Shown piece by piece: positions 34,815 through 45,231 of a stretch of 63,006 nt of DNA (positions are counted from its first letter, which is position 1; the number at the start of each line of letters is the position of its first letter). The notes under the pieces were generated by a model, which saw only the letters and a list, made by a program, of their open reading frames with translations, ran no database searches and was not told the origin of the DNA. Where the stretch lies: contig JACDOK010000012.1 of assembly GCA_017656185.1 (NCBI GenBank), positions 1 to 63,006 on the forward strand, in the 5' to 3' direction. The translations under genes were made by a program, and so were the position numbers. This stretch comes from Peptococcaceae bacterium. Lineage in GTDB: Bacteria; Bacillota; Desulfotomaculia; Desulfotomaculales; JACDOK01.

Positions 34815-35501
34815 ATGAATATTAAAGTACTAACCTATAATATTCATCACGCGGAGGGTGTTGATAATGAGGTCGATTTGGGTCGTATCGCACACGTGCT
34901 TGCGGCATCGGCAGCCGAACTTATTGCTTTGCAAGAAGTAGACCGTTTTATGCCGCGTACCGGATTTGTTCCCCAGGCCAAAAGACTGGCCCAGAAACTC
35001 GGCAAAACATATGTTTTTGCACCCACGCTGCGGCTGGTATGCCTTCCCCTCTTTGGTAATGCGGTTATTAGTGCTTATCCCATTATTTCTTGGACCAACC
35101 ACCGGTTGCCCGGTACCGGTGAACCGCGCAGAATGTTGGAAACACGAATACTGATGCAGGGGGAAACAGTATGTTTCTGTAATACCCATTTGGGGCTTAA
35201 TGCCGTCGATAGAAAAGGGCAGGTGGCAGAAATCATCCGGATTGTCAGCGATATTAAAATTCCCCTGATCTTGTGTGGTGATTTCAACGCCTTACCCGAT
35301 GCCCCCGAAATCCGGGACCTGTTGATAGTACTTGATGATGCCTGTGTTATTAACGGTTATACTTTCCCGCCCCAGGAACCAACGGCACGGATTGATTATA
35401 TCTTTACATCTTCCCACTGGAAGGTACGCAAATGTTTTACGATTAATAGCCAGGCTTCTGACCACCTGCCTATCGTTGCACACTTGACGCTGGACCTTTA
35501 A
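34815..35501 (+). CDS. Endonuclease/exonuclease/phosphatase family protein
   Basis: A 228-residue metal-dependent phosphoesterase. Visible motifs are VLTYNIHH, the metal-binding glutamate in IALQEVDR, NTHLGL, the CGDFNALPD motif and the terminal SDHLPIVAHL. The family includes DNases, sphingomyelinase-like and inositol phosphatases; there is no signal peptide, so a cytoplasmic role is likely. The stop overlaps the convergent end of the sigK 3' part by 4 bp. Confidence 0.85.
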   Translation: MNIKVLTYNIHHAEGVDNEVDLGRIAHVLAASAAELIALQEVDRFMPRTGFVPQAKRLAQKLGKTYVFAPTLRLVCLPLFGNAVISAYPIISWTNHRLPGTGEPRRMLETRILMQGETVCFCNTHLGLNAVDRKGQVAEIIRIVSDIKIPLILCGDFNALPDAPEIRDLLIVLDDACVINGYTFPPQEPTARIDYIFTSSHWKVRKCFTINSQASDHLPIVAHLTLDL

Positions 35502-35881
35502 CCACGGGTGTACTGCGGTGAATTTTCAGTGGTTAGGTCCCTGGTCAGTTTTTGCAGGGCCCTTTTCTCAATCCGGGAAACATAGCTCCGAGAGATGCCC
35601 AAACTTTTCGCAATTTCTTGTTGTGTCTGGCGGATTCCGTTTGCCAGACCGAAGCGCAGGGCAATCACCTTTTTCTCACGCCGGGATAAGTTCTTCATTT
35701 TATCGCGCAGCTTATTGTACTGTAAAATACCTTCCACTTTTTCTTCAACAATTTCCGGATCGGTACCCAGAACGTCGATAAGCGTAATTTCATTGCCCTC
35801 TTTATCCACGCCGATGGGGTCTTGCAGGGATACTTCCGACTTAGTTTTTTTCATGGCTCGTAGGTGCATTAAAATCTCGTT
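35498..35881 (-). CDS. sigK: sigK 3' part (sigma-K regions 3-4), detached from its start
   Basis: Encodes the C-terminal half of the mother-cell sporulation sigma factor. Read in frame from the att core, it gives EILMHLRAMKK, the region-3 segment VSLQDPIGVDKEGNE, and the region-4.2 helix-turn-helix TQQEIAKSLGISRSYVSRIEKRAL. It has no ribosome binding site of its own. Its missing N-terminal half lies 9 kb away (44833-45176), separated by the mobile element. Joining the two at the 5-bp core restores codons N-E-I-L-M without loss. The same gene is split in this way (spoIIIC/spoIVCB) in Bacillus subtilis. Confidence 0.93.
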   Translation of the reverse strand, partial: NEILMHLRAMKKTKSEVSLQDPIGVDKEGNEITLIDVLGTDPEIVEEKVEGILQYNKLRDKMKNLSRREKKVIALRFGLANGIRQTQQEIAKSLGISRSYVSRIEKRALQKLTRDLTTENSPQYTRG

Positions 35882-37421
35882 GGTAATGACAAGAGATAAA
35901 ATCGGGGGATACCCGGGCGTATATCACGGCATTACATTTGTTTTCAATGACGATTTTTTCAATCAAACGCCTCACCAGCAGTTGCCGGCGTGGAAAAGGC
36001 AGATTATCAAGTTGTGCCAGGTAGGAAAATGCCATCTTTTCCGGGCGCATATTAGGAGCTGATGAAGTGATTTTTGACAAGCGGCTTTTTTCATTCTCCA
36101 AAGCGATAATCCTGGCCGTAATCTGTTTCAGCTGCATAGGAAATTGGGACTCGGGCATTTCCCCGTATTCCAATAAATGATAAAGAATGCGGCGGGCCGC
36201 TTGTAACCTCGCCAACTGACTATTAATGTTCTGCAGCTGAACCTCGTAATCGCTCGTGTGTCTAAGGGTATCAGCAATAATGGTTGCAAACGCTGCCGGG
36301 TCGTCGAGCCAGGTCTTAACCTGGTCCCAAACGATTTTTTCTAAGTGTTCGGCTTTGATACGCAGGCCGCATTTCTTGCCGCTGCTGGCTGTTTGACGGC
36401 AGTAATAGTAGGCGTAGGACCGGTTTTTCTTAGTGGTTTGATGACCGTAAAGCTTTCCGCCGCAGTACCCGCACTGGAGCAGGCCGCTTAAAAGATATTG
36501 CCGCTTGTGATATCCTTGTTGTAACCGGCGGATTTGGGACATGCGGGCTTGGGCTTTTTCCCACTGCGTGTATGATATGATGGGTGGTACGGGGACGGGA
36601 ATCCATTCTTCCCGAGCTCGCAGCGAGGGTTTAACTTTTTCCGACGGCGGTTTGTATTTATTAAGACCAACGTCCTTGCACCGGTAACGGTTAACGAAGA
36701 ATGTACCGGTGTAAACCGGGTTGGAGAGGATTTGCTTTATGACCATGCGGTGCCAGGGACCGCGACCTTTTTTAGTAGGAATACCGCGCTTGTTCAAGTG
36801 CCTGGCAATAGCACTGAAACCCCAGAGAAGATCGGTAAAAAGGTGAAAAATATACCTGACTACGCGAGCTTCCGGTTCATTAATAACTAACGCCGCCTCA
36901 GCATGGTCATAATCGTAACCGTAAGGACGGTGGGCGTGAGGCAGTTTGCCGGCTTTGGCTTTTTGAAGCCGCCCGTACATAGTGCGCTCTCGGATTTTTT
37001 CCTTCTCATATTGGGCCACTGCTCCGCGAATAGCGTAAAAAAGCTGGCCTTCCGGAGTGTTCTTCCATTCAAAGTTGACAAATTCAAGACGGATGTTTTT
37101 TCTTTCGATTTCTTCGGTGACAAGCAGTTGGTGGACAATATTGCGGGCAAAGCGGTCAGGATCAAGGACTACGACCATTTGAATGGCCCCTTGTTTAACA
37201 GCTTTGCGCAGGGCGGAAAGACCGGGGCGGGACAACACCGCTCCACTGACGCCCTGGTCCGTAAAGATAAGGCTGCTGGTGGCTCCGAGGCGTTCGGCGT
37301 GCCGGCGGCATTGATCGATTTGGTAGTCGATGCTGTAACCTTTGCGGGCCTGTTCCTCAGATGAAACGCGTGCATAAATTCCGGCTGTCAGGCCGGTTTT
37401 TCGGGTTTCATGGACGCTCAT
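35841..37421 (-). CDS. Large serine recombinase, SpoIVCA-like (copy 1)
   Basis: Site-specific recombinase expected to excise the element and restore sigK in the mother cell. The 526-residue protein has the resolvase domain with the nucleophilic serine in YARVSSEEQ, the DPDRFARN and YEKEKIRERT segments, a recombinase domain (about residues 165-280), a zinc ribbon (CGYCGG, then CRQ and CG) and a C-terminal coiled coil. Its 3' end crosses the att core, and the last 11 residues are read from sigK DNA in another phase. In copy 2 the tail differs. ATG 37421 overlaps the 62-residue gene by 4 bp (ATGA). Confidence 0.93.
   Translation of the reverse strand: MSVHETRKTGLTAGIYARVSSEEQARKGYSIDYQIDQCRRHAERLGATSSLIFTDQGVSGAVLSRPGLSALRKAVKQGAIQMVVVLDPDRFARNIVHQLLVTEEIERKNIRLEFVNFEWKNTPEGQLFYAIRGAVAQYEKEKIRERTMYGRLQKAKAGKLPHAHRPYGYDYDHAEAALVINEPEARVVRYIFHLFTDLLWGFSAIARHLNKRGIPTKKGRGPWHRMVIKQILSNPVYTGTFFVNRYRCKDVGLNKYKPPSEKVKPSLRAREEWIPVPVPPIISYTQWEKAQARMSQIRRLQQGYHKRQYLLSGLLQCGYCGGKLYGHQTTKKNRSYAYYYCRQTASSGKKCGLRIKAEHLEKIVWDQVKTWLDDPAAFATIIADTLRHTSDYEVQLQNINSQLARLQAARRILYHLLEYGEMPESQFPMQLKQITARIIALENEKSRLSKITSSAPNMRPEKMAFSYLAQLDNLPFPRRQLLVRRLIEKIVIENKCNAVIYARVSPDFISCHYQRDFNAPTSHEKN
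35877..35881. other. att core at the sigK 3' junction
   Basis: TCGTT (AACGA on the coding strand) is shared by this junction, the internal junction (40355) and the other outer junction (44833). To the left lies sigK 3' sequence (ATTTTAATG on the coding strand). To the right lies element sequence (ATTACC before the core). The crossover may be anywhere in the 5 bp, since the product is identical. Confidence 0.88.
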
Positions 37422-37606
37422 TCTCTTTTGTGCTCCGGAATGGTTTTAAAATTATTGTCAATTTGCGTAGCCCATTCGACCATTAATTTAAAGCATATTT
37501 CCTTTTCGGCGCGGGCCCGCTCCTTATCACAGACAGGTACGATCCGTACAGTAATATTGTTTGCGCACGGTTTGTCACTCGTAGAATCACCCCCCCTTTG
37601 CAACAT
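37418..37606 (-). CDS. Small gene upstream of the recombinase (copy 1)
   Basis: Up to 62 residues, ending on the ATGA overlap with the recombinase start, so the two are translationally coupled. The core TVRIVPVCDKERARAEK, followed by a helical segment, looks like a folded small protein. The ATG at 37606 lies upstream of the AAAGGGGGGG stretch, so the actual start may be further in, possibly a non-ATG codon. The function is unknown. A recombination directionality or accessory factor is one possibility, by position only. Confidence 0.5.
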   Translation of the reverse strand: MLQRGGDSTSDKPCANNITVRIVPVCDKERARAEKEICFKLMVEWATQIDNNFKTIPEHKRE

Positions 37607-37835
37607 TATGTGTATGAAGAAGGAAAAATGGTGTTATATGTTGTCTTGATGCCCATGTCATGGTAATAACGGTCAAAAAATTTTTCTCTTACAATTATCA
37701 ATTAGGAGGAATTTTCAAATAAAACACGAATAATATGTCGGACAAATAGAATTGTTTGCAGTCCGTTCTAAGTACCACACACTACCAAGGGATTTATTTA
37801 ATCCTTAATAAAAATTTTTACAAAGGGGTGGTTTG

Positions 37836-39335
37836 GTGGAAGCTCAAGGTCGCGAACAATGGGGAACAAGAGTAGGCTTCATCTTGGCCGCTGTGGGCTC
37901 AGCCATCGGGCTGGGTAACATCTGGCGGTTCCCGTACATGGCCTACGAGAATGGTGGTGGTGCTTTTTTAATTCCATACTTTTTCGCGCTGCTGACGGCC
38001 GGTATTGCGATTATGATTTTGGAATTTGGTATCGGCCACAAATACCGGGGTGCTGCTCCGGCAACGTTTGCTGCTATTAACAAAAACTGGGAATGGCTTG
38101 GTTGGCTGCAAACCCTCGTGGCGTTTTGCATTTCGGTCTATTACGTTGTAATTATCGGTTGGGCTATTTCATATTTCTACATGTCATTTGGGCAGGGATG
38201 GGGCGACGACCCCAAAGGATTTTTCTTTGAAAATTTCCTGCACCTTACTGAGGGTCCTTTCCAATTGGGATGTCTCGTGTGGCCTATCCTCGGCGCTACG
38301 CTTATTGCGTGGCTGATTAACTGGATAGTTCTTTACAGCGGCGTCCGGCGTGGCATTGAGGTCGCGAACAAGATCTTTATGCCCATCCTTTTTGTGCTGG
38401 TACTGGTTATGCTGGTGCGTGGTGTGACGCTTCCCGGTGCTGCGGAAGGCCTGAATTGGTTGTTCCGTCCCGATTTCAGCGCTATTTGGGATTATAGGGT
38501 ATGGGCCGATGCCTACGGTCAGATCTTCTTCAGCTTGAGCATCGCTTTTGCTATCATGATTACTTATTCCAGTTATCTGCCTAAGAAATCCGATATTGTC
38601 AACAATGCTTTTATGACGTCCCTCATTAACTGCGGTTTTAGTATGCTGGCAGGCATCGCTGTTTTCAGCATCCTGGGCTACATGGCGGCTGAGCAGGGAA
38701 AGGCCATTCAGGATGTTGCCGGTGCCGGTGTCGGTTTGGCCTTTGTGACTTTCCCGCAGGCCATTAACCTGCTTCCCGCTGCATCGTTCTTTGGAGCGCT
38801 GTTCTTCTTGTCGCTGACTTTTGCAGGGTTGTCTTCAGAAATATCAATCAACGAGGCTGTTATTTCCGCTTTGATGGATAAGTACGGTTGGAGCCGCAAG
38901 GTTGTCGCCACCTGGTTCTGTATCGTTGGTTTTGTTATCAGCCTGTTCTTTGTAACCGGCGGCGGTCTGTATCTGCTGGATATCGTTGACCATTTCATTA
39001 ACAACTTCGGTATTGTTTTCGGAGGTCTGATTGAGGTCATACTCCTAAGCTGGTTCTTTAACTTAGAAAGCGTCAGAAAGCACATCAATGCTGTTTCTGA
39101 TTTTGCCGCCGGAGCCTGGTGGAAGTTCTGCCTGCAGGCCGTTACCCCGATTGTACTAGGCTACATGGCTATTGCCAACCTTATCGGCGATATTAGGGAA
39201 CCCTATAGCGGGTATCCAGTAGGTGCCCTGATAGCCTTCGGTTGGGTTGTTGTTGTGGGTGTCGTAGTTGCTGCCTTTATTCTTCAGGCATCGAAGGGTA
39301 AAGGTCGTATGCTGGACAGCTCGAGCAATCTCTAA
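37836..39335 (+). CDS. NSS-family sodium-dependent transporter, MetP-like (copy 1)
   Basis: Sodium-coupled symporter of the neurotransmitter:sodium symporter fold (LeuT type), about 499 residues with 12 predicted helices. The sodium- and substrate-binding helix 1 is intact (VGSAIGLGNIWRFPYM), as are helix 6 (FFSLSIAFAIMITYSSY) and helix 8 (LTFAGLSSEISINEAV). A MetS-like small subunit gene follows, as in methionine/alanine importers, so neutral amino acid uptake is likely. GTG 37836 has AAAGGGG at normal spacing. Such cargo is unexpected inside a sigK intervening element. A terminator follows the small subunit. Confidence 0.9.
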   Translation: MEAQGREQWGTRVGFILAAVGSAIGLGNIWRFPYMAYENGGGAFLIPYFFALLTAGIAIMILEFGIGHKYRGAAPATFAAINKNWEWLGWLQTLVAFCISVYYVVIIGWAISYFYMSFGQGWGDDPKGFFFENFLHLTEGPFQLGCLVWPILGATLIAWLINWIVLYSGVRRGIEVANKIFMPILFVLVLVMLVRGVTLPGAAEGLNWLFRPDFSAIWDYRVWADAYGQIFFSLSIAFAIMITYSSYLPKKSDIVNNAFMTSLINCGFSMLAGIAVFSILGYMAAEQGKAIQDVAGAGVGLAFVTFPQAINLLPAASFFGALFFLSLTFAGLSSEISINEAVISALMDKYGWSRKVVATWFCIVGFVISLFFVTGGGLYLLDIVDHFINNFGIVFGGLIEVILLSWFFNLESVRKHINAVSDFAAGAWWKFCLQAVTPIVLGYMAIANLIGDIREPYSGYPVGALIAFGWVVVVGVVVAAFILQASKGKGRMLDSSSNL

Positions 39336-39351
39336 TAAAGGGGGTAACAAA

Positions 39352-39453
39352 ATGTCGGCTGGCGCAGTGATAATGATGATCTTCGGACTTGCAGTTACCT
39401 GGGGCGGGGCAGCCATCTGCATAAACCTTGCGATGAAAAAGAGAGGGATATAG
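39352..39453 (+). CDS. MetS-like NSS transporter small subunit (copy 1)
   Basis: A 33-residue single-helix protein: SAGAVIMMIFGLAVTWGGAA, then a basic end KKRGI. This pattern matches the small subunit that partners bacterial NSS transporters (methionine and alanine importer, small subunit). The start has GGGGG 8 bp before it, and the gene is 16 bp after the transporter. It is too short for usual gene finders. Confidence 0.85.
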   Translation: MSAGAVIMMIFGLAVTWGGAAICINLAMKKRGI

Positions 39454-39479
39454 CCCGAAATTTTAGATCTTACTTTACT

Positions 39480-39502
39480 ACCCCGGTCGTAATGACCGGG
39501 GT
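39480..39502 (+). terminator. Intrinsic terminator after the NSS-MetS unit (copy 1)
   Basis: ACCCCGGTC (39480-39488) and GACCGGGGT (39494-39502) form a 9-bp stem with a 5-nt loop, followed by ATTTTGTG. It ends transcription within the element. Confidence 0.8.
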
Positions 39503-39583
39503 ATTTTGTGTTATAAACGTAGTTATAAACGTACGGTCCCGGCCATATAATAGTTAGAACCTTTTATCAAAGGAGCCGGGATC

Positions 39584-39700
39584 ATGCGTGTCTTATATTT
39601 TCAAGGGACCGTTAAGGAGTTTCGGAAGTGGCTTATAAAGTGGCGGCACCTTGGCTCAATGCCTGCCCGGTACTTGGCGTACAGCAAATACCGTCAGTGA
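39584..39700 (+). CDS. 38-residue small protein (copy 1)
   Basis: ATG 39584 is preceded by AAAGGAG at 7-bp spacing. The product MRVLYFQGTVKEFRKWLIKW and its basic C-terminus form an amphipathic, positively charged helix. It has a full start, ribosome site and stop, but I do not recognise a family. It could be a DNA-binding accessory factor or a small regulatory protein; neither is shown. Confidence 0.45.
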   Translation: MRVLYFQGTVKEFRKWLIKWRHLGSMPARYLAYSKYRQ

Positions 39701-39716
39701 ACGTGCATTTGGCGCA

Positions 39717-39851
39717 CTATTCTTGGGTTTTGACCGTTTCCTGTTTTTGCAAGGTACGCTTTTCCGCCATCCGGTGTTTGAATTCCTCTACTTCAAGCCT
39801 GCCCGGGCTGCTGTTATTGAGCTTTACGTCTTCTTTGCTTTGTTTTACCAA
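39717..39851 (-). CDS. 44-residue charged small protein (copy 1)
   Basis: TTG 39851 is preceded by a strong AGAGGAGG at 7-bp spacing and lies 26 bp after the ferredoxin/zinc-ribbon stop. The product is rich in Lys, Glu and Gln (LEVEEFKHRMAEKRTLQKQE) and is predicted helical. No family is recognised. The good ribosome site argues for real translation, in an operon with the ferredoxin gene. Confidence 0.4.
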   Translation of the reverse strand: MVKQSKEDVKLNNSSPGRLEVEEFKHRMAEKRTLQKQETVKTQE

Positions 39852-39877
39852 GGGGGATACCTCCTCTGTTACGGTAT

Positions 39878-40263
39878 TTATTCTCCATGAATGAGGGCAG
39901 GAAGACACTTTACATATACCCATGTGCTGTTGCCTTTGCGGCGAACCGGCAGCAGGGCACGGTTTTTGTCGGAGGCACCGCAAGAGTAGCAGGTAATGGC
40001 ATCGGCAGCAGTATTCTTATTTCTTTGGCGGAGGTGTTCCTTACGGCTTCTTCGGAAAACTCCGGGGCTTCTCGTTCTTTAATACTCAGTGCTCCGGTAG
40101 GGCATACTGGAATGCAGAAACCCGCCCCGTCGCAAAGTTCTTCACGTATGACCCTGGCTTTACCGTCCTGCAGTTCGATGGCCCCTTTGGCACAGGGGCC
40201 GATGCACTTCCCGCATCCATTGCAAAGTTCTTCGTTGATGCGGACGATTTTTCTTTTAACCAC
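39878..40263 (-). CDS. Ferredoxin with C-terminal zinc-ribbon, apparently frameshifted (copy 1)
   Basis: The N-terminal 75 residues hold two [4Fe-4S] sites (CNGCGKCIGPC and CDGAGFCIPVCP). In this frame the sequence then continues as an unrelated tail. One frame back (-1) the DNA encodes CYSCGASDKN, then VKCLPALIHGE and a stop at 39878, a recognisable zinc-ribbon end. The switch lies near 40037-40046, where one added base would join the frames smoothly (EEAV to KEHL). It may be a genuine mutation, a programmed shift or a sequencing error; it is the same in both copies. GTG 40263 has AGAGG upstream and a TACAAT box at 40301-40306. Confidence 0.65.
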
Positions 40264-40333
40264 GTTTTATCAGCCTCTTATGTTTTAGGATTCATAAATT
40301 ATTGTACCCTAAAAACAGTGGTTTTACATAAGT

Positions 40334-41899
40334 TTAACCGCTGTAAGCACAAAGTCGTTGGTAATGACAAGAGATAAAATCGGGGGATACCCGGGCGTAT
40401 ATCACGGCATTACATTTGTTTTCAATGACGATTTTTTCAATCAAACGCCTCACCAGCAGTTGCCGGCGTGGAAAAGGCAGATTATCAAGTTGTGCCAGGT
40501 AGGAAAATGCCATCTTTTCCGGGCGCATATTAGGAGCTGATGAAGTGATTTTTGACAAGCGGCTTTTTTCATTCTCCAAAGCGATAATCCTGGCCGTAAT
40601 CTGTTTCAGCTGCATAGGAAATTGGGACTCGGGCATTTCCCCGTATTCCAATAAATGATAAAGAATGCGGCGGGCCGCTTGTAACCTCGCCAACTGACTA
40701 TTAATGTTCTGCAGCTGAACCTCGTAATCGCTCGTGTGTCTAAGGGTATCAGCAATAATGGTTGCAAACGCTGCCGGGTCGTCGAGCCAGGTCTTAACCT
40801 GGTCCCAAACGATTTTTTCTAAGTGTTCGGCTTTGATACGCAGGCCGCATTTCTTGCCGCTGCTGGCTGTTTGACGGCAGTAATAGTAGGCGTAGGACCG
40901 GTTTTTCTTAGTGGTTTGATGACCGTAAAGCTTTCCGCCGCAGTACCCGCACTGGAGCAGGCCGCTTAAAAGATATTGCCGCTTGTGATATCCTTGTTGT
41001 AACCGGCGGATTTGGGACATGCGGGCTTGGGCTTTTTCCCACTGCGTGTATGATATGATGGGTGGTACGGGGACGGGAATCCATTCTTCCCGAGCTCGCA
41101 GCGAGGGTTTAACTTTTTCCGACGGCGGTTTGTATTTATTAAGACCAACGTCCTTGCACCGGTAACGGTTAACGAAGAATGTACCGGTGTAAACCGGGTT
41201 GGAGAGGATTTGCTTTATGACCATGCGGTGCCAGGGACCGCGACCTTTTTTAGTAGGAATACCGCGCTTGTTCAAGTGCCTGGCAATAGCACTGAAACCC
41301 CAGAGAAGATCGGTAAAAAGGTGAAAAATATACCTGACTACGCGAGCTTCCGGTTCATTAATAACTAACGCCGCCTCAGCATGGTCATAATCGTAACCGT
41401 AAGGACGGTGGGCGTGAGGCAGTTTGCCGGCTTTGGCTTTTTGAAGCCGCCCGTACATAGTGCGCTCTCGGATTTTTTCCTTCTCATATTGGGCCACTGC
41501 TCCGCGAATAGCGTAAAAAAGCTGGCCTTCCGGAGTGTTCTTCCATTCAAAGTTGACAAATTCAAGACGGATGTTTTTTCTTTCGATTTCTTCGGTGACA
41601 AGCAGTTGGTGGACAATATTGCGGGCAAAGCGGTCAGGATCAAGGACTACGACCATTTGAATGGCCCCTTGTTTAACAGCTTTGCGCAGGGCGGAAAGAC
41701 CGGGGCGGGACAACACCGCTCCACTGACGCCCTGGTCCGTAAAGATAAGGCTGCTGGTGGCTCCGAGGCGTTCGGCGTGCCGGCGGCATTGATCGATTTG
41801 GTAGTCGATGCTGTAACCTTTGCGGGCCTGTTCCTCAGATGAAACGCGTGCATAAATTCCGGCTGTCAGGCCGGTTTTTCGGGTTTCATGGACGCTCAT
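40334..41899 (-). CDS. Large serine recombinase, SpoIVCA-like (copy 2)
   Basis: Same protein as copy 1 up to the att core, 521 residues in total. Beyond the core the last six residues are LCAYSG, read from element DNA of the neighbouring copy. This is the tail the recombinase would also have in the free circle. The catalytic serine, zinc-ribbon cysteines and coiled coil are intact, so both copies could be active. Confidence 0.93.
   Translation of the reverse strand: MSVHETRKTGLTAGIYARVSSEEQARKGYSIDYQIDQCRRHAERLGATSSLIFTDQGVSGAVLSRPGLSALRKAVKQGAIQMVVVLDPDRFARNIVHQLLVTEEIERKNIRLEFVNFEWKNTPEGQLFYAIRGAVAQYEKEKIRERTMYGRLQKAKAGKLPHAHRPYGYDYDHAEAALVINEPEARVVRYIFHLFTDLLWGFSAIARHLNKRGIPTKKGRGPWHRMVIKQILSNPVYTGTFFVNRYRCKDVGLNKYKPPSEKVKPSLRAREEWIPVPVPPIISYTQWEKAQARMSQIRRLQQGYHKRQYLLSGLLQCGYCGGKLYGHQTTKKNRSYAYYYCRQTASSGKKCGLRIKAEHLEKIVWDQVKTWLDDPAAFATIIADTLRHTSDYEVQLQNINSQLARLQAARRILYHLLEYGEMPESQFPMQLKQITARIIALENEKSRLSKITSSAPNMRPEKMAFSYLAQLDNLPFPRRQLLVRRLIEKIVIENKCNAVIYARVSPDFISCHYQRLCAYSG
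40355..40359. other. Internal junction core, attP-like
   Basis: At the seam between the copies the core TCGTT is flanked on both sides by element sequence only (coding strand ATTACC before, CTTTGTGC after). This is the sequence expected at the closed junction of an excised circle, that is attP. No sigK sequence remains here. Confidence 0.85.
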
Positions 41900-42084
41900 T
41901 CTCTTTTGTGCTCCGGAATGGTTTTAAAATTATTGTCAATTTGCGTAGCCCATTCGACCATTAATTTAAAGCATATTTCCTTTTCGGCGCGGGCCCGCTC
42001 CTTATCACAGACAGGTACGATCCGTACAGTAATATTGTTTGCGCACGGTTTGTCACTCGTAGAATCACCCCCCCTTTGCAACAT
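41896..42084 (-). CDS. Small gene upstream of the recombinase (copy 2)
   Basis: Identical to the 62-residue frame of copy 1, with the same ATGA overlap with the recombinase. The N-terminus is uncertain for the same reason: the purine-rich AAAGGGGGGG lies inside the frame. Confidence 0.5.
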   Translation of the reverse strand: MLQRGGDSTSDKPCANNITVRIVPVCDKERARAEKEICFKLMVEWATQIDNNFKTIPEHKRE

Positions 42085-42313
42085 TATGTGTATGAAGAAG
42101 GAAAAATGGTGTTATATGTTGTCTTGATGCCCATGTCATGGTAATAACGGTCAAAAAATTTTTCTCTTACAATTATCAATTAGGAGGAATTTTCAAATAA
42201 AACACGAATAATATGTCGGACAAATAGAATTGTTTGCAGTCCGTTCTAAGTACCACACACTACCAAGGGATTTATTTAATCCTTAATAAAAATTTTTACA
42301 AAGGGGTGGTTTG

Positions 42314-43813
42314 GTGGAAGCTCAAGGTCGCGAACAATGGGGAACAAGAGTAGGCTTCATCTTGGCCGCTGTGGGCTCAGCCATCGGGCTGGGTAACATC
42401 TGGCGGTTCCCGTACATGGCCTACGAGAATGGTGGTGGTGCTTTTTTAATTCCATACTTTTTCGCGCTGCTGACGGCCGGTATTGCGATTATGATTTTGG
42501 AATTTGGTATCGGCCACAAATACCGGGGTGCTGCTCCGGCAACGTTTGCTGCTATTAACAAAAACTGGGAATGGCTTGGTTGGCTGCAAACCCTCGTGGC
42601 GTTTTGCATTTCGGTCTATTACGTTGTAATTATCGGTTGGGCTATTTCATATTTCTACATGTCATTTGGGCAGGGATGGGGCGACGACCCCAAAGGATTT
42701 TTCTTTGAAAATTTCCTGCACCTTACTGAGGGTCCTTTCCAATTGGGATGTCTCGTGTGGCCTATCCTCGGCGCTACGCTTATTGCGTGGCTGATTAACT
42801 GGATAGTTCTTTACAGCGGCGTCCGGCGTGGCATTGAGGTCGCGAACAAGATCTTTATGCCCATCCTTTTTGTGCTGGTACTGGTTATGCTGGTGCGTGG
42901 TGTGACGCTTCCCGGTGCTGCGGAAGGCCTGAATTGGTTGTTCCGTCCCGATTTCAGCGCTATTTGGGATTATAGGGTATGGGCCGATGCCTACGGTCAG
43001 ATCTTCTTCAGCTTGAGCATCGCTTTTGCTATCATGATTACTTATTCCAGTTATCTGCCTAAGAAATCCGATATTGTCAACAATGCTTTTATGACGTCCC
43101 TCATTAACTGCGGTTTTAGTATGCTGGCAGGCATCGCTGTTTTCAGCATCCTGGGCTACATGGCGGCTGAGCAGGGAAAGGCCATTCAGGATGTTGCCGG
43201 TGCCGGTGTCGGTTTGGCCTTTGTGACTTTCCCGCAGGCCATTAACCTGCTTCCCGCTGCATCGTTCTTTGGAGCGCTGTTCTTCTTGTCGCTGACTTTT
43301 GCAGGGTTGTCTTCAGAAATATCAATCAACGAGGCTGTTATTTCCGCTTTGATGGATAAGTACGGTTGGAGCCGCAAGGTTGTCGCCACCTGGTTCTGTA
43401 TCGTTGGTTTTGTTATCAGCCTGTTCTTTGTAACCGGCGGCGGTCTGTATCTGCTGGATATCGTTGACCATTTCATTAACAACTTCGGTATTGTTTTCGG
43501 AGGTCTGATTGAGGTCATACTCCTAAGCTGGTTCTTTAACTTAGAAAGCGTCAGAAAGCACATCAATGCTGTTTCTGATTTTGCCGCCGGAGCCTGGTGG
43601 AAGTTCTGCCTGCAGGCCGTTACCCCGATTGTACTAGGCTACATGGCTATTGCCAACCTTATCGGCGATATTAGGGAACCCTATAGCGGGTATCCAGTAG
43701 GTGCCCTGATAGCCTTCGGTTGGGTTGTTGTTGTGGGTGTCGTAGTTGCTGCCTTTATTCTTCAGGCATCGAAGGGTAAAGGTCGTATGCTGGACAGCTC
43801 GAGCAATCTCTAA
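42314..43813 (+). CDS. NSS-family sodium-dependent transporter, MetP-like (copy 2)
   Basis: Identical in translation to copy 1, with an intact helix 1 motif (GSAIGLGNIWRFPY) and small subunit following. The genome segment therefore carries two equal doses of the transporter while the dimer is integrated. Both would be lost from the mother-cell chromosome on excision, though not from the spore. Confidence 0.9.
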   Translation: MEAQGREQWGTRVGFILAAVGSAIGLGNIWRFPYMAYENGGGAFLIPYFFALLTAGIAIMILEFGIGHKYRGAAPATFAAINKNWEWLGWLQTLVAFCISVYYVVIIGWAISYFYMSFGQGWGDDPKGFFFENFLHLTEGPFQLGCLVWPILGATLIAWLINWIVLYSGVRRGIEVANKIFMPILFVLVLVMLVRGVTLPGAAEGLNWLFRPDFSAIWDYRVWADAYGQIFFSLSIAFAIMITYSSYLPKKSDIVNNAFMTSLINCGFSMLAGIAVFSILGYMAAEQGKAIQDVAGAGVGLAFVTFPQAINLLPAASFFGALFFLSLTFAGLSSEISINEAVISALMDKYGWSRKVVATWFCIVGFVISLFFVTGGGLYLLDIVDHFINNFGIVFGGLIEVILLSWFFNLESVRKHINAVSDFAAGAWWKFCLQAVTPIVLGYMAIANLIGDIREPYSGYPVGALIAFGWVVVVGVVVAAFILQASKGKGRMLDSSSNL

Positions 43814-43829
43814 TAAAGGGGGTAACAAA

Positions 43830-43931
43830 ATGTCGGCTGGCGCAGTGATAATGATGATCTTCGGACTTGCAGTTACCTGGGGCGGGGCAGCCATCTGCAT
43901 AAACCTTGCGATGAAAAAGAGAGGGATATAG
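43830..43931 (+). CDS. MetS-like NSS transporter small subunit (copy 2)
   Basis: Same 33-residue single-helix protein as in copy 1, 16 bp after the transporter and with the same GGGGG ribosome site. Confidence 0.85.
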   Translation: MSAGAVIMMIFGLAVTWGGAAICINLAMKKRGI

Positions 43932-43957
43932 CCCGAAATTTTAGATCTTACTTTACT

Positions 43958-43980
43958 ACCCCGGTCGTAATGACCGGGGT
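43958..43980 (+). terminator. Intrinsic terminator after the NSS-MetS unit (copy 2)
   Basis: Same 9-bp stem (ACCCCGGTC / GACCGGGGT) with trailing T-rich stretch as in copy 1. Confidence 0.8.
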
Positions 43981-44061
43981 ATTTTGTGTTATAAACGTAG
44001 TTATAAACGTACGGTCCCGGCCATATAATAGTTAGAACCTTTTATCAAAGGAGCCGGGATC

Positions 44062-44178
44062 ATGCGTGTCTTATATTTTCAAGGGACCGTTAAGGAGTTT
44101 CGGAAGTGGCTTATAAAGTGGCGGCACCTTGGCTCAATGCCTGCCCGGTACTTGGCGTACAGCAAATACCGTCAGTGA
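44062..44178 (+). CDS. 38-residue small protein (copy 2)
   Basis: Same reading frame, AAAGGAG ribosome site and basic amphipathic product as in copy 1. Not recognised as a known family. Confidence 0.45.
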   Translation: MRVLYFQGTVKEFRKWLIKWRHLGSMPARYLAYSKYRQ

Positions 44179-44194
44179 ACGTGCATTTGGCGCA

Positions 44195-44329
44195 CTATTC
44201 TTGGGTTTTGACCGTTTCCTGTTTTTGCAAGGTACGCTTTTCCGCCATCCGGTGTTTGAATTCCTCTACTTCAAGCCTGCCCGGGCTGCTGTTATTGAGC
44301 TTTACGTCTTCTTTGCTTTGTTTTACCAA
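44195..44329 (-). CDS. 44-residue charged small protein (copy 2)
   Basis: Same TTG start and AGAGGAGG ribosome site as copy 1; a Lys/Glu-rich helical product of unknown role, downstream of the ferredoxin gene. Confidence 0.4.
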   Translation of the reverse strand: MVKQSKEDVKLNNSSPGRLEVEEFKHRMAEKRTLQKQETVKTQE

Positions 44330-44355
44330 GGGGGATACCTCCTCTGTTACGGTAT

Positions 44356-44741
44356 TTATTCTCCATGAATGAGGGCAGGAAGACACTTTACATATACCCA
44401 TGTGCTGTTGCCTTTGCGGCGAACCGGCAGCAGGGCACGGTTTTTGTCGGAGGCACCGCAAGAGTAGCAGGTAATGGCATCGGCAGCAGTATTCTTATTT
44501 CTTTGGCGGAGGTGTTCCTTACGGCTTCTTCGGAAAACTCCGGGGCTTCTCGTTCTTTAATACTCAGTGCTCCGGTAGGGCATACTGGAATGCAGAAACC
44601 CGCCCCGTCGCAAAGTTCTTCACGTATGACCCTGGCTTTACCGTCCTGCAGTTCGATGGCCCCTTTGGCACAGGGGCCGATGCACTTCCCGCATCCATTG
44701 CAAAGTTCTTCGTTGATGCGGACGATTTTTCTTTTAACCAC
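44356..44741 (-). CDS. Ferredoxin with C-terminal zinc-ribbon, apparently frameshifted (copy 2)
   Basis: Carries the same two [4Fe-4S] motifs, and the same -1 switch near 44515-44524 before the CYSC and KCLPALIHG zinc-ribbon end. Because the defect is shared, it predates the duplication if it is real. Confidence 0.65.
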
Positions 44742-44801
44742 GTTTTATCAGCCTCTTATGTTTTAGGATTCATAAATTATTGTACCCTAAAAACAGTGGT
44801 T

Positions 44802-45176
44802 TTACATAAGTTTAACCGCTGTAAGCACAAAGTCGTTTTCGATGCACCGCGCCGCATAAGTTGCCAGGCGGGTTCCTTTCGTAGGGTTATAGGTCTTAAT
44901 GGCCTTAATTAAACCAATGGTACCGATGGAAATGAGATCGTCCAGGTCTTCTCCGGTATTGTCATATTTTTTTATTATGTGCGCGACAAGCCTTAAGTTA
45001 TGTTCGGTAAGAATGTGACAGGCTTCCTGGTTACCTTCCAGCATAAGATCTAGGTACTTTTTTTCTTCTTCGCGGGAAAGGGGTTGTGGAAAGGTATTGT
45101 TAGTGATGTAAGATAACAATAAAAGGATACCGTTAATTACAGAGACGACGCCGATACTAAGGATGGTCGGTAGCAT
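44802..45176 (-). CDS. sigK: sigK 5' part (pro-sequence and regions 1-2), truncated by the element
   Basis: Encodes the N-terminal 114 residues of pro-sigma-K plus 10 residues of element-encoded tail before a stop. It has the hydrophobic pro-peptide, the processing region [14 protein letters not shown] (serine-tyrosine pair at 22-23, equivalent to the SpoIVFB cut site) and region 2 ([13 protein letters not shown], then GTIGLIKAI and [11 protein letters not shown]). ATG 45176 has GGGGAGGTG at ideal spacing; the longer frame from 45224 starts before the likely promoter. Joined to the 3' part it gives about 240 residues, the normal pro-sigma-K length. Without excision only a non-functional fragment is made. 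Confidence 0.94.
44833..44837. other. att core at the sigK 5' junction
   Basis: TCGTT, third occurrence of the core, 4478 bp from the internal one. On the coding strand it follows CATCGAAAA (sigK codons C-I-E-N) and precedes element sequence CTTTGTGC. Confidence 0.88.
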
Positions 45177-45204
45177 AGGACACCTCCCCAAATCTATGCA
45201 TTTT

Positions 45205-45231
45205 ATTCTATGAAAGTTCGCCATAATGTGT
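45205..45231 (-). promoter_or_regulatory. Possible sigma-E-type promoter of sigK
   Basis: On the minus strand CATAGAAT (45205-45212) matches the sigma-E -10 CATACAAT closely. ACACATT (45225-45231) is a weaker -35 with 12-bp spacing, slightly short. Its position, about 20-30 bp before the sigK ribosome site, fits mother-cell control as known for sigK. It is an eye match and not proof. Confidence 0.35.

Follow-up and report, generated by a model that had tools for sequence, protein, structure and literature searches.

The DNA studied here is a whole contig of 63,006 nucleotides (JACDOK010000012.1, our contig C12; hereafter the window) from the 2.31-Mb, 82-contig draft genome of a spore-forming Peptococcaceae bacterium (assembly GCA_017656185.1). 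We label this genome G000, and other genomes of its order carry labels of the same kind. In the window, the late sporulation gene sigK is interrupted at 35876/44833 by two tandem copies of a 4478-bp element (35877–40354 and 40355–44832), in which no letter differs. Each copy encodes a large serine recombinase, a transporter of the NSS (SNF) family and a MetS-like small subunit. The insert is an unusually compact element of the skin type with private metabolic cargo. Most probably it is a minimal, non-phage member of that type, whose excision would restore sigK, while the NSS-MetS genes would be an accessory pair, probably working independently of excision. The features of the locus are as follows.

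35498–35876, minus strand: sigK 3' half, encoding region 4, to the left of the element; it scores 164.5 bits with the NCBIfam SigK C-part model and, on joining, continues the frame of the 5' half
35877–35881, no strand: attachment (att) core TCGTT, left end of copy 1, set by the limits of the 4478-bp repeat
35841–37421, minus strand: large serine recombinase, copy 1; its 3' end runs through the core into sigK
37418–37606, minus strand: 62-aa open reading frame (ORF) overlapping the recombinase start, copy 1; candidate directionality factor
37833–39335, plus strand: NSS (SNF-family) transporter, copy 1; sodium coupling by family
39352–39453, plus strand: 33-aa MetS-like NSS small subunit, copy 1 (NF033493)
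39479–39503, plus strand: terminator-like hairpin after the small subunit, copy 1
39584–39700, plus strand: orf38, conserved, 38 aa, copy 1; homologues in G004, G049 and G058
39717–39851, minus strand: fdpost, 44-aa ORF after the ferredoxin, copy 1; homologues in G004, G049 and G058, a weaker one in G014
39910–40263, minus strand: 2[4Fe-4S] ferredoxin-like ORF, copy 1, frameshifted
40355–40359, no strand: core TCGTT at the copy junction, which is attP, an inverted repeat around TC
40334–41899, minus strand: large serine recombinase, copy 2, 521 aa, circle form
41896–42084, minus strand: 62-aa ORF overlapping the recombinase start, copy 2
42311–43813, plus strand: NSS transporter, copy 2, identical to copy 1
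43830–43931, plus strand: MetS-like small subunit, copy 2
43957–43981, plus strand: terminator-like hairpin, copy 2
44062–44178, plus strand: orf38, copy 2
44195–44329, minus strand: fdpost ORF, copy 2
44388–44741, minus strand: ferredoxin-like ORF, copy 2, with the same frameshift
44833–44837, no strand: att core TCGTT, right end of copy 2
44838–45224, minus strand: sigK 5' half, encoding region 2, to the right of the element

The copies start 4478 bp apart and are identical for 4483 bp, the length of the repeat plus the 5-bp core TCGTT. The sigK region 4 frame (35498–35869, minus strand) lies to the left of the copies and the region 2 frame (44802–45224, minus strand) to the right. When the two flanks were fused with a single core, the result was an open 256-aa frame, a complete sigK, reading ...RCIENEILMHLRAMKKTK...; the halves join in frame and contain no extra stops. 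A sigK query against G000 returned, among the matches listed, the two halves and a 48% match on contig C10. Since the latter is at the level of sigE-like genes in relatives, the search shows no second sigK in the assembly. A Pfam scan of seven element proteins recognised recombinase, transporter, ferredoxin and MetS-like families and no phage family. The ORFs, the Pfam and NCBIfam matches and the repeat identity together confirmed what an earlier note on this DNA had described, namely a compact element within a split sigK that carries an intact NSS gene, a 33-residue MetS-like subunit and a terminator, in two copies.

The recombinase ORF is intact, and the copy 2 protein, which was the one scanned, carries the Resolvase, Recombinase and Zn_ribbon_recom domains above cut-off. 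It shares a superfamily with XisF of the fdxN element, scoring 140 bits, far under the XisF family cut-off of 375. XisF and the fdxN element belong to a developmental excision, the heterocyst rearrangement, in other hosts and at another target. The attP of the window is symmetric around its central TC at 14 of 25 positions (shuffle mean 6.3, p 0.0002), and the reconstructed attP sites of G004 and G011 reach 19/25 and 16/25; in both of these genomes, fusing the halves also restores sigK, and the central dinucleotide is TC/GA there too. Among phage proteins, the recombinase was closest to an integrase from Alicyclobacillus phage MMB025 (38.8% identity over 93%). This phage has sigK as its integration site, the core being reported as TCTC (PMC13141910). 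The most symmetric site within 4.5 kb around the MMB025 integrase lies just behind the gene, is centred on GA/TC and scores 18/25. From the integrase match, the sigK target and the GA/TC-centred site, the recombinase appears to belong to an integrase line that targets this point of sigK. MMB025 is, however, a 105-kb phage, whereas the element described here is without phage genes by Pfam.

A small ORF of about 50–70 aa whose end reaches or overlaps the start of the recombinase gene formed one clear family in 19 of 33 selected recombinase loci, these being the window, 31 loci adjoining a sigK half and the separate recombinase contig of G011; two loci, L109 and L189, had no small ORF at the recombinase start. 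The 62-aa ORF of the window is a candidate directionality factor. Its size is comparable to those of known directionality factors of such elements, including GirX with 42 aa (PMC5595907) and factors of 53 and 72 aa compared in PMC10747680. The conserved orf38 was rejected as a general directionality factor, with clear matches in G000, G004, G049 and G058 only among the loci examined. A sigma-E promoter before orf38 was also rejected: the match at 39525 is at chance level (5 occurrences of a simple consensus in the window versus 5.1 expected) and is not kept in G004, G049 and G058.

The NSS ORF encodes 500 aa from a TTG start, with the GTG at 37836/42314 equally possible. The protein matched Pfam SNF over its full length (416.5 bits versus a cut-off of 27), and its relatives in the PDB are dopamine, noradrenaline and other NSS transporters. 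It looks intact in both copies, since it departs from 20 NSS relatives at 8 of 193 near-invariant columns. The 33-aa subunit passed the broad NCBIfam model MetS_like_NSS (NF033493) with 52.4 bits against a cut-off of 25 and failed the methionine/alanine MetS equivalog model (20.5 bits versus 70). The MetP/MetS-type assignment made in the earlier note thus holds for the NSS (SNF) family and the broad MetS-like class and fails at the methionine/alanine level; "MetP-like" and "amino-acid uptake" are family-level guesses for this protein. The pair lies on the strand opposite sigK, with a Shine-Dalgarno-like sequence and a terminator of its own, and its two transporter copies are the sole NSS genes of G000. 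In the NSS tree, for which a motif filter took out 8 sequences among 29 relatives, namely that of G009 and seven from beyond the order, and which did not include G010 and G079, the window gene grouped with that of G017 (82/100), within the NSS genes of the order. Three other ideas about the gene were rejected. Recent foreign composition was set aside on a GC content of 0.496 against 0.495 in the rest of the window, phage origin on a best phage-record match of 43% identity, and control by a known RNA family on a search of the window in which no Rfam family reached its gathering score.

These observations suggest the following course of events. The large serine recombinase, probably with the small coupled protein, would recombine the flanking att sites at the central TC. 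By analogy with known skin elements (PMC5025042), the sigK halves would then be joined in frame in the mother cell and the insert released as a circle. The NSS unit would be whole in both the integrated and the circular form, so that its expression need not change, and the pair is probably an ordinary uptake system of growing cells that would act independently of excision. Several points weigh against this account. Skin elements do not usually occur as identical tandem copies; excision is deduced from the DNA sequence; and the 62-aa ORF resembles its counterparts weakly, matching that of G004 at 26% over 34 aa (E 0.003). In addition, no sigma-E promoter was recognised upstream of the recombinase or sigK, none of the simple consensus occurrences in the window falling before either gene. 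The anatomy, the att sites, the restored frame and the private character of the cargo are observed directly, and the mother-cell timing, the role of the small ORF and the transport activity are presumed.

The alternative that survives best concerns the tandem itself. It may not be chromosomal, a single integrated copy and excised circles, whose reads cross attP, having been assembled as two copies; we give this reading a chance only somewhat short of even. Two copies that match perfectly for 4.48 kb in a draft of 82 contigs speak for it, as does G011, where the homologous element forms a separate 4902-bp contig that ends at the att core, the pattern to be expected from a mixture of both forms. 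In the yin element, circles coexist with the integrated form in cultures (PMC10747680). On the other hand, a circle that recombined homologously into a resident copy would yield the same tandem. A ribosomal RNA operon check on the tandem gave no 16S match in G000, with 9 of 14 controls matched. In either case, sequence that crosses attP was assembled. The separate G011 contig suggests that mixed integrated and excised forms occur in the DNA of such strains. In G011, contigs C11, C12 and C10 of that genome (L085, L086 and L087) are probably neighbours, and those next to the element contig end exactly at the sigK att core.

To place the element among its relatives, we searched for sigK in G000 and 59 other genomes of the order, with counts that are lower bounds. 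At least 16 of the 59 carry sigK as separate N and C matches. In 15 of these 16, a serine recombinase adjoins a half on the same contig; the recombinase of G011 occupies a separate contig. A scan of the named genomes found 21 recombinase loci, 10 of them adjoining a sigK half, and the flanks examined at these 21 loci held no NSS gene. NSS homologues (58–71% identity) occur in 19 of 112 other genomes of the order (113 with G000), and the stretches read around all 19 contained no sigK half or related recombinase, with one side unseen in G017 and G067, whose NSS genes lie 232 bp and 1.4 kb from a contig end. In G017, G067, G011 and G029, the genes for transporter and subunit stand together as an isolated pair, surrounded by unrelated genes. 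A mobile skin lineage that always carries NSS was rejected, as no other genome had NSS beside sigK in the stretches read. The syntenic element of G004 (2895 bp) consists of a recombinase, a small ORF, orf38, fdpost and a ferredoxin, without NSS; the pair would therefore have either arrived after G000 and G004 parted or been lost in G004, with acquisition after divergence the likelier course. The NSS pair is thus private cargo and not typical of the sigK elements of the order. The earlier note had proposed a search for NSS genes between other sigK halves, and none was found beside sigK in the stretches read for the 19 NSS-bearing relatives and the 21 recombinase loci. It had also named, as a sign of a chance passenger, relatives with the transporter at unrelated loci and sigK intact; close homologues do lie at unrelated loci, but sigK is often split in the order.

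A second alternative concerns the origin of the other genes. The element ferredoxin keeps both cluster motifs and, in both copies, loses its frame after about residue 75–80 compared with G004 and G049. In G049, sigK is intact and is followed by a 100-aa ORF, the ferredoxin, fdpost, orf38 in reverse orientation, and an endonuclease-like gene, which is the gene that also follows sigK in the window. In G058, of the same genus as G049, fdpost and orf38 are present there with extra genes and without the ferredoxin. The window and G004 have the ferredoxin, fdpost and orf38 in the G049 order and orientation, but between the N-terminal half of sigK and the recombinase with the C-terminal half. Part of the intervening DNA could thus be former sigK-downstream genes, with the sigK 3' half and the recombinase displaced beyond them. 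The match to G049 in genes, order, orientation and next gene, together with the two genes kept in G058, argues for this history. The reverse, in which cargo was left behind as sigK became whole, fits equally well, and G014 has a whole sigK 0.8 kb from the same endonuclease-like gene without the ferredoxin or orf38 (a weak fdpost match lies upstream of sigK). These genes would have been either caught between the sigK halves or left outside when sigK became whole, and we regard capture as possible, though less likely than not. The fuller version, in which the sigK-splitting DNA of this clade is not purely foreign, having enclosed resident genes and then taken up the NSS-MetS pair, is tentative and rather unlikely. 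If it were true, every sporulation would remove what had been ordinary chromosomal genes from the chromosome of the mother cell, and the gap in sigK would be a docking place for small metabolic cargo. The ferredoxin, fdpost and orf38 loci lie at L076 8190–9805, L212 8188–11014, L075 6297–7165 and window 39584–40263. Ferredoxin homologues in 20 other genomes had no orf38 nearby, and a weak fdpost-like match only in G011.

It is very unlikely that the element is dead, leaving sigK permanently broken and spore coats unfinished. The frameshifted ferredoxin would fit decay; however, the recombinase ORF is intact with all three domains, the att sites are symmetric, and the sigK halves join in frame without extra stops.

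The earlier note had held that the transporter is deleted from the mother cell and that uptake thereby depends on cell fate. Excision of skin elements is a late event, in the terminal mother cell. The loss was overstated, as the circle, once excised, is expected to remain in that cell with the entire NSS unit, and fate-dependent uptake is therefore without support; for uptake to change, the circle or expression from it would have to be lost, and nothing points that way. The idea that the transporter was put there to make uptake differ between the mother cell and the spore line is the least credible reading of all: although the only NSS genes of the genome sit in the element and both copies are intact, none of the 19 NSS-bearing relatives has NSS beside sigK in the stretches read, the syntenic G004 element lacks it, the circle would retain the gene while protein already made persists, and excision comes late in a terminal cell. 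The transporter itself is an accessory passenger until shown otherwise, with no sign that its location has a purpose.

Among known systems, the skin element of B. subtilis also splits sigK, has a 5-nt core and is excised by a serine recombinase (PMC13141910), and its ars operon includes a transporter gene, the Acr3-type arsenite efflux pump ArsB (PMC12607644). It is, however, about 48 kb and prophage-like, whereas the present element is 4.5 kb, in tandem, with no phage family found and a transporter of another family. The Clostridioides difficile skin element likewise has a large serine recombinase beside the sigK 3' half and a small directionality factor (PMC5025042) but comprises 19 genes and is prophage-like. 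The gin element in gerE of Bacillus cereus is a non-phage intervening element, without phage genes, that has a serine recombinase and a 42-aa directionality factor (PMC5595907); unlike the present element, it is 28.6 kb, targets gerE and has three recombinases. The statement that known skin elements carry mainly phage-like genes, also from the earlier note, is weakened by the B. subtilis ars operon (PMC12607644) and by gin (PMC5595907). In 2016, skin elements were called an exception in clostridia (PMC5025042), in contrast to the split sigK found here in at least 16 of 59 other genomes of the order. The element further indicates that a sigK-interrupting element can be reduced to a minimal set, namely a recombinase with its tiny partner plus a few metabolic genes. 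It also opens to testing the question of whether such elements are maintained as regulatory switches, because they carry useful genes, or for both reasons. In the literature covered, which mostly leaves out subscription journals, a search for a sigK or skin element in Desulfotomaculum or Pelotomaculum returned arsenic-gene papers only, and nothing was found on NSS or amino-acid transporters in skin elements.

The other compact sigK elements of the order, about 2.9–6.1 kb in G004, G011, G006, G019, G021, G023 and G082, resemble the present one in that sigK is split beside a related recombinase and the cargo is non-phage where recognised; they differ in that the cargo varies and none includes NSS. 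A TdeIII restriction endonuclease and a DNA methylase are encoded in the G006 element (L077 3754–5826), and their presence could make loss of the element harmful. The G011 element carries an AMP-binding ligase and that of G019 a cyclic-nucleotide/DUF2225 protein, similar by sequence to G074, and two proteins tested from the G021 element gave no recognised family. In G023, the element (about 6 kb) carries a LysR regulator, a B3/4 protein, an EamA transporter and an HD protein (L080 3856–9403), and G082 shares this cargo by sequence (L184 6110–11496), the families having been scanned in G023 only. The EamA gene means that a transporter as sigK-element cargo is not unique to the window. Several of the 16 genomes with a split sigK also have a full-length sigK-like paralogue, and not all of them need therefore depend on excision. 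Across the split-sigK loci (L075–L094 and L109–L114), element size ranged from about 2.9 kb to tens of kb.

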